In this document: in pieces, positions 38,396 through 46,136 of the stretch | How the letters are laid out: every line of letters starts with the position of its first letter | How positions within the stretch are numbered: the stretch's first letter is position 1 | Source: Streptomyces albus subsp. albus | Lineage (GTDB): Bacteria; Actinomycetota; Actinomycetes; Streptomycetales; Streptomycetaceae | Length of the DNA stretch: 64,000 nt | NCBI RefSeq assembly: GCF_000725885.1 | Contig: NZ_JODR01000006.1 | Span: 192,618-256,617 of the forward strand | Direction of reading: 5' to 3' | Position numbers and translations under genes: made by a program | Notes under the pieces: model-generated | Seen by the model: the letters and a program-made list of their open reading frames with translations, nothing else | Told to the model about the DNA's origin: nothing | Databases searched by the model: none

Positions 38396-39418
38396 TCAGC
38401 CGGCCGCCAGGCCACCCGTCTCCAGGCTGGCCAGAGCGGACTCCCCCGCGTACCGCAGCCGCCCGTCCTGCCGCACCGTCACGTGCAGCCGGCCGGCCAG
38501 GTGCTGGACGGAGCTGCCGAAGCGGTGCCGCTCCAGACGCGGCACGGGAAGGTAGTACGCCCTGCCCCCGGGCGCGGTGCCGGTCAGCTCCACCCGGTGC
38601 CGGGCGGAGCGGCCGGCGAGGTGCCAGGTGCCGTCGCGCACGGTGGCCCGCACGAGGGCGGCGGGCGGAAAGAGGCCGATCGTCTCGTCGCCGGCGCGCA
38701 CCACGAGGCCGTTGACCCGCAGGGTGAGCCCGCCGCGGCCGAGACTGCCGCCCGCGAAGGCCACGCACAGGTCCTCGCGGTCGAAGCCGTGGGCCTGGCC
38801 CCACCACCAGGCGGGCGGGAAGCCGCGGCCCCACGACTTCTCGGCGTAGACCTGGCTGCCGGACAGGTCCCACACCTCGTCCGCCAGTCGGGCGACGCCC
38901 TCCACGCGGGCGCCGAAGAGGTGCGGGTGCCAGTAGTGGTTGAGGCCGGGGACGGCGGAGAAGACGCTGGTGCCCGGCAGGAGGCGGCGCGGCGGCCAGG
39001 TGTGCTCGGGACGCAGGGCGCAGCGGATGTCCACGTCGTCACCGATGCGGACCCGCAGCCGCTTGCCGTCCAGTGCCAGGGCGGGCAGCGCGCTGATGCG
39101 GTAGGCGGCGGTGTCGTCCCAGGCGCCGTCCACGCTGGCGGAGCGGATCAGCCCCGAGGGGTGCGCGGCGACCACGACCGTGGCCCACGGTGGTCCGGGC
39201 GGGTGGTTGACGCCGCAGGCGACGAGGAGCACCCTGCCGCGCCCGGGGTCGGTGAACCGCCACAGGTAGCCCTCCATGGGGGCCCGGTGGGAAGGCAGCG
39301 GGTCACCGCCGGGCAGGTCGGCCCCGGTGCCGCGCCACAGGTCGCGCAGCCGCGTGGAGCGGGGGACGGCGGGTTCGCTGGCCCGTTCCGCGAGGCGGGC
39401 CCGGTGGCCGGCCCTCAT
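38396..39418 (-). CDS. Tocopherol-cyclase-family protein
   Basis: The 340-residue product has the hallmarks of the tocopherol cyclase (VTE1/SXD1) fold: HYWHPHLFGARVEG, then YAEKSWGRGFPPAWWWGQAHGF and, near the C-terminus, SALASLETGG. In plants and cyanobacteria this enzyme closes the chromanol ring of prenylated benzoquinols. Plant enzymes are longer because of transit peptides. ATG 39418 overlaps the polyprenyl synthase stop by four bases. It ends 11 bases from the convergent LacI gene. Clustering with a dioxygenase giving homogentisate, a prenyltransferase and methyltransferases supports a true chromanol-forming role; activity and substrate are inferred. Confidence 0.85.
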   Translation of the reverse strand: MRAGHRARLAERASEPAVPRSTRLRDLWRGTGADLPGGDPLPSHRAPMEGYLWRFTDPGRGRVLLVACGVNHPPGPPWATVVVAAHPSGLIRSASVDGAWDDTAAYRISALPALALDGKRLRVRIGDDVDIRCALRPEHTWPPRRLLPGTSVFSAVPGLNHYWHPHLFGARVEGVARLADEVWDLSGSQVYAEKSWGRGFPPAWWWGQAHGFDREDLCVAFAGGSLGRGGLTLRVNGLVVRAGDETIGLFPPAALVRATVRDGTWHLAGRSARHRVELTGTAPGGRAYYLPVPRLERHRFGSSVQHLAGRLHVTVRQDGRLRYAGESALASLETGGLAAG

Positions 39419-40482
39419 TGTTCCCGTGCCGTCAGGTAGTGGGCCATGGCGTGCAGTTCGGTGCGGGTGTGCTCGGGCATCGGCAGTCCGGCGACGGCCG
39501 CCAGCGCGGCTTCCTGCTGACGGCGTGCCTCTGCTTCGGCCGCGGCCCGCCCGCCGGCCGCCTCGGTCAGTTCCAGCGCGGTGGGCAACTCCGCCTCGCC
39601 GAGCCGTCCCCGGTGGCGGTGCAGCAGTGCGGCGAGGCGGTCGCCGGCCGGGGTGCCGGAGGCGAGGGCGGCGATGACGGGCAGGGTCCTGCGGCCCTCG
39701 CTCAGGTCGGAGCCGACGGGTTTGCCCGTCGCGGACTGCCGTCCCCACAGGCCGATCACATCGTCGGCGCACTGGAAGGCGACGCCGATGCGGCGCCCGA
39801 ACAGTGCCAGGCGGGCCACCTGCCGCGGGCCGCCGCCGGCCAGCAGCGCGCCGAGGGCGGTGGCCCCGGCGAGGAGGGCGCCGGTCTTGGCGGCTGCCGC
39901 GCGGCGGTAGTCGGCGAGGGTCACCGCGCCGGGTCCGCTCCAGGGAGCACGGGTGAAGGCGTGGTCGGACGCCTGTCCGTGCAAGGTGGCGAGCATGGCG
40001 CGGGTCAGCAGGGTGACGGCCCAGGTGGAGCGGGGGGTGTGCGGGGCGGCCAGGGTGTCGGCGGCCAGGACGTAGAGGCCGTCGCCGGTGAGCAGGGCGG
40101 CGCCGGTGCCGTACTGCTGCCAGACCGTGGGACGGCCCCGGCGCGTGGTGTCGCCGTCCATGATGTCGTCGTGGACCAGGGCGAAGTTGTGGACCAGTTC
40201 GACGGCCACGGCACCCGGTACGGCGTGCCGGGGCGGTGCGCCGAGGGCTTCGGCGGCGAGGAAGGTGAGCGCGGGGCGTACGGCCTTGCCGGTGCGGGCC
40301 CGTTCGGCGGGGTCTCCCCCGGGGCCCCACCAGCCCAGGTGGTAGCCGCTCATGAGGGCGAGGTGGCGGGGCAGCCGGTCCACGGCGGCGCGGAGGGCGG
40401 GTTCGATCCGGGCGTAGGCGCGTCGGCAGACCGATACGGCGATCTCGTGAGCCTTCGCCGCCGGGCCCGCCGCCCCGGTCAT
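39415..40482 (-). CDS. Polyprenyl diphosphate synthase (likely geranylgeranyl-PP synthase)
   Basis: A 355-residue trans-isoprenyl diphosphate synthase. The first Asp-rich motif DDIMD is at 105-109 and the second DDVIG at 240-244; KAVRP (66-70) marks the IPP-binding region. It condenses IPP with allylic diphosphates, and the product would feed the UbiA enzyme encoded directly upstream. Chain length cannot be fixed by eye; Phe at the fifth position before the first motif is compatible with C20. Both ends overlap neighbours by four bases. Confidence 0.9.
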   Translation of the reverse strand: MTGAAGPAAKAHEIAVSVCRRAYARIEPALRAAVDRLPRHLALMSGYHLGWWGPGGDPAERARTGKAVRPALTFLAAEALGAPPRHAVPGAVAVELVHNFALVHDDIMDGDTTRRGRPTVWQQYGTGAALLTGDGLYVLAADTLAAPHTPRSTWAVTLLTRAMLATLHGQASDHAFTRAPWSGPGAVTLADYRRAAAAKTGALLAGATALGALLAGGGPRQVARLALFGRRIGVAFQCADDVIGLWGRQSATGKPVGSDLSEGRRTLPVIAALASGTPAGDRLAALLHRHRGRLGEAELPTALELTEAAGGRAAAEAEARRQQEAALAAVAGLPMPEHTRTELHAMAHYLTAREQ

Positions 40483-44865: not shown

Positions 44866-46136
44866 GCCCGGCGGCGGACGGCGCCCGGATCGTCGTCGTG
44901 GGCGCGGGGCCCGGCGGAGCCACGGCCGCCTGCCACCTGGCACGGCAGGGCCTTGAGGTGACCTTGGTGGAGAAGTCCGCCTTCCCCCGGGAGAAGGTCT
45001 GCGGCGACGGTCTGACCCCCCGCGCGGTACGGCACCTGGTCCGGATGGGCATCGACACCTCCGGCCCGGGCTGGATGCGCAACCGCGGGCTGCGGTTCGT
45101 CTCCCGGGGGCAGACCCTCGAACTCGACTGGCCCGAGAGCGGCCGGTTCCCCGGCTACGGCCTCACCCGGAGGCGCGAGGACTTCGACGAGCTCCTCGCC
45201 CGGCACGCCGAAGCGGCCGGGGCCCGCCTGCTCACCAGGACGAAGGCCACCGGGCCGCTGCGGGACCGGGCCGGGCGGGTCACCGGCGTCTCGGTGACCG
45301 GTCCCGACGGCACCCCGCGCGAGCTGGGCGCCGAGCTGGTGCTGGCCGCCGACGGGGTCGCCGGACGGCTGGCGGTGGCCGTCGGTATCGAACGGCTGAA
45401 GAAGCGGCCCGTCGGCACCGCCGTACGCCGCTACTACCGCAGCCCCGCCAAGCACCGCGACCCGTATCTGGAGACCTGGCTGGACCTGCGCCGGGAGGAC
45501 GGCCGCATCCTCCCCGGCTACAGCTGGATCTTCCCGCTGGGCGACGGGCGGGTCAACGTCGGACTCGGCGTCCTCAACGACTCCCGCACCGGGACGATGG
45601 AGACCCGCAGACTGCTCGACACCTGGCTGGCCCGCACCCCCGGCGAATGGGGCCTGGGCGAGGCGGACAACGCCGACGGGCCACTGCGCGGCGCGGCCCT
45701 GCCCATGGGCTTCAACCGCGTCCCCCACTACCGGGACGGACTGCTGCTGATCGGGGACGCCGGCGGCATGGTCAACCCCTGCAACGGCGAGGGCATCGCC
45801 TACGCCATGGAGTCGGCCGAGCTGGCGGCCGAAGTGGTGGCACAGGCGCTGGCCCGCCCCGCCGGACCCTCCCGCGAACGGGCCCTGGAACAGTACCCGG
45901 CACAGATGGCGCACCGGCTGGGCCGCTACTACCGGCTCGGCCGCGGCTTCTCCGCCCTGATGGCACGCCCGGCCTTCACCTCCCTCGTCACCCAGAACGC
46001 CGTCAGGTCCCCCGGCGCGATGCGCTTCATGGTGCGGCTGCTGTCGAACCTGACCGACACCCCGGCCTCGGACGCGCTGGACCACGCCGTCAACACCCTC
46101 ATCCGGGTGACTCCGGCGCCCCGGCCGGTGCCCTGA
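44862..46136 (+). CDS. Geranylgeranyl-reductase-family flavoprotein
   Basis: A 424-residue FAD-dependent protein with N-terminal VVVGAGPGGATAACHLA, the CGDGLTPRAV motif typical of geranylgeranyl reductases, and GDAGGMVNPCNGEGIAYAME near residue 300. Relatives saturate double bonds of geranylgeranyl diphosphate, chlorophyll or menaquinone side chains. Here it could reduce the prenyl tail to a phytyl-like chain, which would decide between tocotrienol- and tocopherol-like products. It is the last gene of the rightward operon. Confidence 0.9.
   Translation: MSPAADGARIVVVGAGPGGATAACHLARQGLEVTLVEKSAFPREKVCGDGLTPRAVRHLVRMGIDTSGPGWMRNRGLRFVSRGQTLELDWPESGRFPGYGLTRRREDFDELLARHAEAAGARLLTRTKATGPLRDRAGRVTGVSVTGPDGTPRELGAELVLAADGVAGRLAVAVGIERLKKRPVGTAVRRYYRSPAKHRDPYLETWLDLRREDGRILPGYSWIFPLGDGRVNVGLGVLNDSRTGTMETRRLLDTWLARTPGEWGLGEADNADGPLRGAALPMGFNRVPHYRDGLLLIGDAGGMVNPCNGEGIAYAMESAELAAEVVAQALARPAGPSRERALEQYPAQMAHRLGRYYRLGRGFSALMARPAFTSLVTQNAVRSPGAMRFMVRLLSNLTDTPASDALDHAVNTLIRVTPAPRPVP

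Follow-up and report, generated by a model that had tools for sequence, protein, structure and literature searches.

Seven genes within a 64,000-nucleotide stretch of the Streptomyces albus subsp. albus genome (the window) probably encode a self-contained pathway to a 6-hydroxychromanol with ring methyls and a C20 prenyl chain, which as a meroditerpenoid of tocochromanol type would be close to vitamin E. Lipids of the vitamin E type are usually described from photosynthetic organisms, with plants, algae and cyanobacteria making tocochromanols by means of HPPD, VTE2, VTE3, VTE1, VTE4 and ChlP/GGR. The reading of the block given here is drawn from gene families, linkage, conservation, paralogy and retained catalytic residues; the individual steps, their order, the substrates and the product are proposed.

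Re-derivation of the open reading frame coordinates returned exactly the span (38396-46136) and the two divergent, tightly coupled operons given by an earlier sequence-only reading. The minus-strand operon starts with a SibL/SfmM2-type aromatic C-methyltransferase of 366 aa (42742-41642), the proposed L-tyrosine C3-methyltransferase, followed by a UbiA-family membrane prenyltransferase of 388 aa (41645-40479) proposed to be a (methyl)homogentisate geranylgeranyltransferase, a short-chain polyprenyl, probably geranylgeranyl, diphosphate synthase (GGPS) of 355 aa (40482-39415) and, last, a tocopherol-cyclase-family protein of 340 aa (39418-38396), with every adjacent pair sharing 4 bp. On the plus strand are the genes for a 4-hydroxyphenylpyruvate dioxygenase (HPPD) of 392 aa (42917-44095), a UbiE/MenG-type ring C-methyltransferase of 243 aa (44134-44865) and a geranylgeranyl-reductase-family flavoprotein of 424 aa (44862-46136), the proposed side-chain reductase; here 38 bp separate the first two genes, and the second and third overlap by 4 bp. 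No tyrosine aminotransferase gene is found inside the seven-gene block. The gap between the two start codons (42743-42916) is the putative divergent promoter region common to both operons and contains the inverted repeat CACTATA-N16-TATAGTG (42854-42883), which is found at this single place both in the window (none in 100 shuffled versions) and in the 7.63-Mb genome, and recurs between the two operons of four among ten relatives (L002-L005). No sigma-70-type promoter was scored at the repeat, which is a candidate operator or may represent paired back-to-back -10 elements.

A genome scan gave 291 cyclase loci, the best 80 of which were kept for comparison of neighbourhoods. Co-occurrence of the genes elsewhere as a conserved block, which the sequence-only reading had put forward as a check, was found in ten Streptomyces/Wenjunlia loci among these 80, with identical order and orientation, an arrangement beyond chance. 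HPPD, the C-methyltransferase, UbiA, the cyclase and the reductase are each present in all ten, UbiE is missing from two and GGPS from four, and none of the six cluster neighbours was detected at the other 70 cyclase loci within the DNA examined around each. With a crude gene call, only two of the ten relatives have flanking gene families in common with the window (five in L002, one in L006), thus it is the block itself that stays together. The L006 family is cytochrome oxidase subunit I (COX1), there on the opposite side of the block. In the window, L006 and L007 an additional COX1 gene is situated no more than about 10 kb from the block, that of the window being directly after the block and one of three in the genome; within the DNA examined COX1 was not found at the other eight of the ten cluster loci. 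The nearby COX1 could point to a respiratory role.

The cyclase passes the tocopherol cyclase profile that had been named as a check (Tocopherol_cycl, PF14249; 57 bits against a cut-off of 26.6), with the match confined to profile positions 127-335 of 335, the C-terminal 209. Both motifs singled out earlier are there, YAEKSWG at 191 and WWWGQ at 204, and YxEK[S/A/N]WG and WWWGQ are kept in the cyclase of all ten clusters. In the window protein Ser replaces the Asn of the YxEKNWG-type motif, a block suggested to share in catalysis in the enzymes of photosynthetic organisms (PMC4963081). The predicted structure is a double-lipocalin fold, as in known cyclases and hydratases, with the cyclase model matching the AttH/kievitone-hydratase-like form of it over its full length. 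The same fold is found in hydratases, lyases and pericyclases (8-15% identity, Foldseek TM-scores of about 0.4-0.6), the relatives including kievitone hydratase, [4+2] pericyclases and a phosphosteroid lyase. Tocopherol-cyclase-like proteins of the same family, a Rhodococcus member included, were noted in heterotrophic bacteria in 2016, there described as being without known function (PMC4963081). In a tree 44 of the 70 lone cyclases, together with two metagenome proteins, lie on one side of a 100/100 branch and the cluster-type cyclases on the other.

The prenyl synthase matches the polyprenyl synthetase family (PF00348, 183.8 against 27 bits), its closest PDB sequence is 3nf2 (238.6 bits), and the aspartate motif that had been claimed for it is found as DDIMD at 105; a C20 chain length is presumably assigned by the Phe at -5, under a one-residue rule. 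UbiA likewise belongs to its family (PF01040, 88 against 34.2 bits) and has the motifs NEYFDLEAD at 79 and DIEGD at 213, yet falls far below the homogentisate phytyltransferase (VTE2/HPT) model (NF009525, 19.3 against 226), with the best-scoring model, that of 1,4-dihydroxy-2-naphthoate prenyltransferase, also far under its cut-off (53 against 264). In a tree of 40 hand-chosen sequences one clade (support 99/98) holds 12 of the 16 cyclase-associated UbiAs. A second Streptomyces cluster, L117, lacks the cyclase but has homologues of HPPD, UbiA and GGPS (53-58% identity to the window proteins) next to genes for a flavin monooxygenase and a class II terpene cyclase of squalene-hopene type, with no match to the window cyclase, C-methyltransferase, UbiE or reductase within the 19 kb examined. 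UbiA enzymes of this type are thereby linked with HPPD and with a synthase of the GGPP type.

The first gene of the minus operon, previously taken for an O-methyltransferase, is instead a SibL/SfmM2-type aromatic C-methyltransferase, as judged by its match to SibL (4qvg; 383.7 bits, 173 of 335 ungapped residues or 52% identical) and by retention of SibL Asp132, Tyr134, Asp292, Tyr295 and His335, of which the catalytic Asp132, Tyr134 and Tyr295 correspond to D153, Y155 and Y316. The SibL subtype itself was rejected, the 3-hydroxykynurenine contacts Tyr99 and Tyr288 being replaced by Phe120 and Val309. Among 120 listed of 448 homologues, the window's own protein included, the first site is Phe in 117 and the second Val, Ile, Met or Leu in all 120, whilst Asp132 is absent in 10; RenB of renieramycin has Phe/Met. 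The names given by the sources disagree, with L-tyrosine C(3)-methyltransferase for 15 of those 120, ubiquinone/menaquinone C-methylase UbiE for 19, and for most of the rest either no name or plain 'methyltransferase'. From the shared pocket pair and the 15 source names the acceptor is probably L-tyrosine, the sequences compared being those of SibL, RenB and the listed homologues. SfmM2 is described as taking only phenolic amino acids and rejecting phenols without the amino acid group (PMC13109631).

It is apparent that three of the cluster enzymes are second copies. HPPD (TIGR01263, 394 against 277) keeps, as had been claimed, its three metal-ligand positions, which we take to be H187, H270 and E349 in S. 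avermitilis numbering, in all 11 cluster HPPDs aligned to that protein, the window's included; the genome's other HPPD (G000:C17) is 60% identical. UbiE (TIGR01934, 210.8 against 158.35) passes the demethylmenaquinone methyltransferase (MenG) equivalog NF001241 at 337.8 against 327 and stays below the MpqE model (NF052510, 173.2 against 335). It was rejected as the sole menG of the genome, another copy near nuo (G000:C16:78071-78784; 55% identical) scoring 403 against the same 327. For the reductase only the broad geranylgeranyl-reductase superfamily is passed (TIGR02032, 242.1 against 158.8), with ChlP (TIGR02028, 55.7 against 505.3) and MenJ (NF045655, 245.8 against 700) both well short; a second, menJ-like copy near nuo on C16, 55% identical, is also below MenJ at 246.9. 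As UbiE and the reductase have counterparts near nuo and HPPD a further copy, the cluster copies look dedicated. No VTE3 or VTE4 model was among the profile matches listed (the best 25 for UbiE), and it is possible that the MenG-type and SibL/SfmM2-type enzymes are the functional equivalents of VTE3 and VTE4.

In the proposed pathway the SibL/SfmM2-type enzyme would place a methyl group adjacent to the phenol OH of L-tyrosine, from which a housekeeping aminotransferase would give 3-methyl-4-hydroxyphenylpyruvate, to be converted by the cluster HPPD to methyl-homogentisate. UbiA would prenylate this with GGPP from the cluster synthase, with loss of the carboxyl leaving a second ring methyl, and the UbiE/MenG paralogue would add a third. 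The cyclase would then close the chromanol ring, and the reductase would saturate some or all of the side-chain double bonds. The full gene set would thus lead to a trimethyl (alpha-type) chromanol, and the two clusters without UbiE to a dimethyl one. Given a product of this class, methylation of tyrosine at the outset is somewhat favoured.

In plants both ring methylations come after prenylation. The same order may apply here, with the SibL-type enzyme methylating homogentisate or the prenylated quinol/chromanol, a less likely variant within the same product class. It would not need a specialised HPPD copy and would suit the UbiE-type names on some homologues, and as SibL acts on 3-hydroxykynurenine (PMC4426599) the methyltransferase family is not confined to tyrosine. 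Against it are the pocket pair, shared with RenB and the homologues named for L-tyrosine and not with SibL, the selectivity of SfmM2, and the SibL substrate, described as fully buried, which suits a small molecule better than a C20 lipid.

More distant from the chromanol reading, and about as unlikely as the plant-like order, is an open-chain prenylated quinone or quinol, perhaps respiratory, or another meroterpenoid, the cyclase-family protein acting as a hydratase or cyclising otherwise. The chromanol reading is weakened by the far-below-threshold UbiA score, by the partial Pfam match of a cyclase whose fold serves other reactions, by relatives without GGPS or UbiE and a block without an aminotransferase, and by the conflicting names and occasional loss of Asp132 in the C-methyltransferase family. 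The lone cyclases of many actinobacteria, the different cyclisation genes of L117 and the occurrence of methyl-plastoquinones in Nitrospira (PMC12324825) also fit an open-chain or other product, to which the neighbouring COX1 adds very slightly. Opposed to it are the invariable presence of the cyclase with its motifs, one of them the suggested catalytic block, the MpqE score of UbiE, and the failure to find COX1 at eight of the ten loci in the DNA examined. An alternative in which UbiE and the reductase serve menaquinone synthesis as ordinary menG and menJ-like genes, lie here by chance and form no single pathway with the rest is highly improbable: UbiE does pass the MenG model, but the genome has another, higher-scoring menG and another reductase of the family near nuo, and both genes hold their place in the block (eight and ten of the ten) in mostly differing surroundings.

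Compared with the tocochromanol pathway of photosynthetic organisms, the classes of chemical step are the same and the HPPD and cyclase families are common to both. The expectation that every tocopherol enzyme class is present held for the HPPD, prenyl synthase, UbiA, UbiE, cyclase and reductase families and failed for the O-methyltransferase. A complete tocopherol pathway, as had been claimed, is not supported in those terms, since by model UbiA falls outside VTE2/HPT and the reductase outside ChlP, and the methyltransferases are a MenG paralogue and a SibL/SfmM2-type enzyme; further differences are the gathering of the genes in one cluster of a non-photosynthetic actinomycete and a methylation that is probably before HPPD. 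Among the SibL/SfmM2 enzymes (sibiromycin, saframycin; RenB of renieramycin), SibL shares the catalytic tyrosines with the window enzyme, and RenB, like the homologues named for L-tyrosine, the Phe/aliphatic pair, but the window gene adjoins HPPD and UbiA rather than a peptide synthetase, and its product would feed homogentisate. The Nitrospira methyl-plastoquinone pathway is also ring-methylated prenylquinol chemistry of a non-photosynthetic bacterium (PMC12324825); what sets the window apart from it is the presence of a cyclase and of a prenyl synthase of the short-chain kind, with a UbiE under the MpqE cut-off, and the genome retains menG and a menJ-like gene near nuo. With L117 the window shares HPPD, the UbiA type and GGPS, although ring closure there would be by epoxidation and class II terpene cyclisation.

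Searches of an open-access paper collection turned up no report of this cluster, and it looks to have been assembled independently of the plant pathway, mostly from different enzymes. It is conceivable, if short of an even chance, that what some streptomycetes produce is a genuine chromanol of the vitamin E type, be it alpha-tocotrienol, alpha-tocopherol or a partially reduced form, with the methyl put on tyrosine before HPPD, a non-HPT prenyltransferase, reused menG and menJ-like copies and a cyclase from an actinobacterial lipocalin family. Natural clusters that lack UbiE, or the prenyl synthase, allow the assignment of steps to be tested directly. If the reading is true, the chromanol head group would have arisen a second time, built differently, a function would be given to one branch of the bacterial tocopherol-cyclase-like proteins that are now orphans, and a self-contained seven-gene set for tocochromanols or new meroditerpenoids would be to hand.

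The block of seven genes at 38396-46136 is fairly likely to form a pathway devoted to making a methylated C20 chromanol, and the positions given for all seven genes in the sequence-only reading are correct. On the minus strand the C-methyltransferase gene (42742-41642) overlaps that of a UbiA prenyltransferase (41645-40479), which overlaps the prenyl synthase gene GGPS (40482-39415), which in turn overlaps the cyclase gene (39418-38396), the fourth in the series, each overlap being of 4 bp. On the plus strand the HPPD gene (42917-44095) is followed after a 38-bp gap by UbiE (44134-44865), with a 4-bp overlap between UbiE and the reductase gene (44862-46136), the third in that series.

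It had been proposed that the cyclase belongs to the tocopherol cyclase family, and it does pass the Pfam tocopherol-cyclase profile (57 against a cut-off of 26.6), the match covering profile positions 127-335 only. The idea that the block recurs elsewhere is also borne out. When one genome was scanned for each species, 291 places with a cyclase relative emerged, of which the best 80 were taken as loci. Ten of these, all in Streptomyces or Wenjunlia, carry the genes in one constant order, reductase-(UbiE)-HPPD divergent from C-methyltransferase-UbiA-(GGPS)-cyclase. UbiE is absent from two of the ten (L009 and L011) and GGPS from four (L004, L009, L010 and L011). S. diacarni is among the species with UbiE, whereas S. 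minutiscleroticus and Wenjunlia vitaminophila lack it and would be expected to make a product with one methyl fewer. By a crude gene call, based on a GC3 rule of our own that misses some genes, five flank families are common to the window and locus L002 of S. albus subsp. chlorinus, the only one common to the window and L006 is the cytochrome oxidase subunit I gene COX1, on the opposite side of the block, and several other cluster loci have flanks in common among themselves. The flank adjoining the cyclase end (33200-38384) holds a LacI-family regulator, a solute-binding protein and two ABC transporter permeases, with two families common to L002, and at 49142-51089 there are convergent genes for an archease (PF01951) and an RtcB RNA ligase (PF01139).

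A sample of 392 genomes from the genus had the cyclase in 3, and one of 394 from the class had UbiA in 3, the genome itself counted in both; the two other cyclase genomes and one of the UbiA genomes add no locus to those of the species scan. Homologue searches for cyclase, UbiA and C-methyltransferase scored about 8000 candidates of a larger pool, with the best 120 of 194 UbiA homologues examined; they suggest, indirectly, that Nocardia sp. BMG51109 also carries all three genes. A search of a plasmid collection with the cyclase gave no match, UbiA homologues occur there in three S. clavuligerus records and one of Ca. Megaera, and 11 of its records hold C-methyltransferase homologues, RenB accounting for four; in the one S. 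clavuligerus plasmid region inspected of the three, neither HPPD nor cyclase is annotated. Among the 4 to 20 titles listed per search of an open-access library, none reports a tocochromanol cluster in Streptomyces or other actinobacteria, the broadest of these searches saying little. Inoculation of sweetpotato with a Streptomyces is reported to raise gamma-tocopherol, with an account of 4-HPP in culture and of induced plant genes but of no bacterial tocopherol (PMC13055315).

Outside the cluster loci the cyclase is found alone. At the 70 remaining loci, in Rhodococcus, Mycobacterium, Corynebacterium, Solirubrobacterales and other actinobacteria, the other six genes were not found in the surrounding stretch, some contigs being short. 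The commonest neighbour groups there, after the cyclase itself, are antisense over the cyclase, and 16 of 30 neighbour-group representatives, judged by eye, gave no common functional context. In the cyclase tree 44 of the 70 lone cyclases, together with two metagenome proteins, are split from the cluster type by a 100/100 branch. The label 'cluster' takes four changes on this tree because the unlabelled entries P0006, P0007, P0019, P0113 and P0118 sit among or beside cluster rows, and long branches lead to P0019, P0113, L010 and L011. All 28 cyclase relatives that were profiled match PF14249, and a search of PDB sequences with the profile built from them gave no hit at E up to 1.

The gene that had been labelled an O-methyltransferase was misnamed. 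Its product is 52% identical, ungapped over 335 residues, to SibL, a C-methyltransferase of 3-hydroxykynurenine in which Tyr134 is the base, Asp132 assists and Tyr295 lies at the phenol (PMC4426599). All of Tyr134, Asp132, Tyr295, Asp292 and His335 are retained, and with this SibL-type match and these catalytic residues an O-methyltransferase identity is rejected. At Tyr99, which in SibL binds the ring amine of 3-hydroxykynurenine, the window protein has Phe, and at Tyr288 it has Val. Among the best 120 of 448 homologues, 117 have Phe and three Leu at the Tyr99 site, the Tyr288 site is always Val, Ile, Met or Leu, Tyr134 and Tyr295 are invariant and Asp132 is kept in 110; the source names of these same homologues conflict, with 15 called L-tyrosine C(3)-methyltransferase and 19 UbiE-type C-methylase. 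RenB, encoded on the renieramycin plasmid, has Phe and Met at the two sites, its neighbour RenE has peptide-synthetase domains, and we take RenB to be the counterpart of SfmM2 of saframycin synthesis. SfmM2 is reported to act on phenolic amino acids only (PMC13109631). From the residue pattern, the RenB pair and this substrate range, methylation is therefore placed on tyrosine, ahead of HPPD, a placement that is somewhat favoured given a product of this class.

The prenyltransferase retains the UbiA aspartate motifs. Its best model is MenA-type, far below cut-off (53 against 264), and it falls further below that for homogentisate phytyltransferase (19.3 against 226), so that by model a VTE2-type enzyme is rejected; no PDB sequence was matched at E 1e-3. 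Its acceptor is inferred from gene linkage. In the UbiA tree the 'with cyclase' labels are based on contigs of equal length or on a shared organism. The residue at -5 of the DDxxD motif serves as a chain-length rule for prenyl synthases; in the window's synthase it is Phe, which suggests a C20 product, and all six cluster synthases have this Phe. The window's synthase also scores 357.7 bits with the model of the family 2 encapsulin cargo polyprenyl transferase, below its cut-off of 450. Another Streptomyces genome has a cluster, L117 (G345:C10:29000-48000), in which HPPD-acyltransferase-UbiA-GGPS stand alongside a cyclase of squalene-hopene type and a flavin monooxygenase; its HPPD, UbiA and GGPS are 58%, 57% and 53% identical to those of the window, and no tocopherol cyclase was found in its 19 kb. 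Thus HPPD, the same UbiA type and a GGPP-type synthase recur with a different ring-closing module, and L117 is a probable second homogentisate meroditerpenoid cluster. It is flanked by siderophore-uptake genes, and the second UbiA homologue of that genome, at L118, has no other cluster genes nearby.

UbiE and the reductase might be taken for ordinary menaquinone genes, an explanation made very unlikely by further copies in the same genome on contig C16. That contig carries another UbiE/MenG (55% identity; NF001241, 403 vs 327) and another member of the reductase family (55% identity), both no more than about 9 kb from nuoB and nuoD. One TGA flagged inside the C16 matches is read as a natural stop because the listed frames, menG of 232 aa and reductase of 431 aa, are both open and pass their models. 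A ChlP-type reductase was ruled out by model scores. A second HPPD, 60% identical, is on contig C17. With these further copies the cluster copies of UbiE, reductase and HPPD are therefore extra, and their conservation goes with that of the block. In the 11 cluster HPPDs the metal ligands are unaltered, and 27 residues common to all of them differ from those of the second copy as well as from those of the S. avermitilis enzyme.

A less likely alternative is that the cyclase-family protein closes no chromanol ring, with the product then an open-chain prenylated quinone or quinol or another meroterpenoid. The main new point for this is COX1 (PF00115, about 46355-48088, plus strand), one of three such genes in the genome, directly after the reductase. 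A COX1 89% identical to it lies beyond the cyclase in L006, and the start of one is about 10 kb from the block in L007; near the block it was not found in the stretches examined at eight of the ten related loci, including L002 despite the flanks common to the window. The proximity may be chance or a hint of a link with respiration. Between the two operons lies an inverted repeat, CACTATA-N16-TATAGTG (42854-42883), which has a single copy in the window and in the whole 7.63-Mb genome, is at the same intergenic position in four of ten relatives, and may serve as an operator or consist of two -10 elements placed back to back; a scan of 42600-43050 for sigma-70-like promoters and terminators scored none.

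In the favoured pathway to a methylated chromanol, HPPD and cyclase belong to the protein families used in vitamin E synthesis, and the enzymes of the remaining steps were probably taken over from menaquinone synthesis and natural-product pathways of actinobacteria. The block would work in the manner of the plant and cyanobacterial tocochromanol pathway but fails several of its defining features, and it is therefore called a variant of tocochromanol synthesis.
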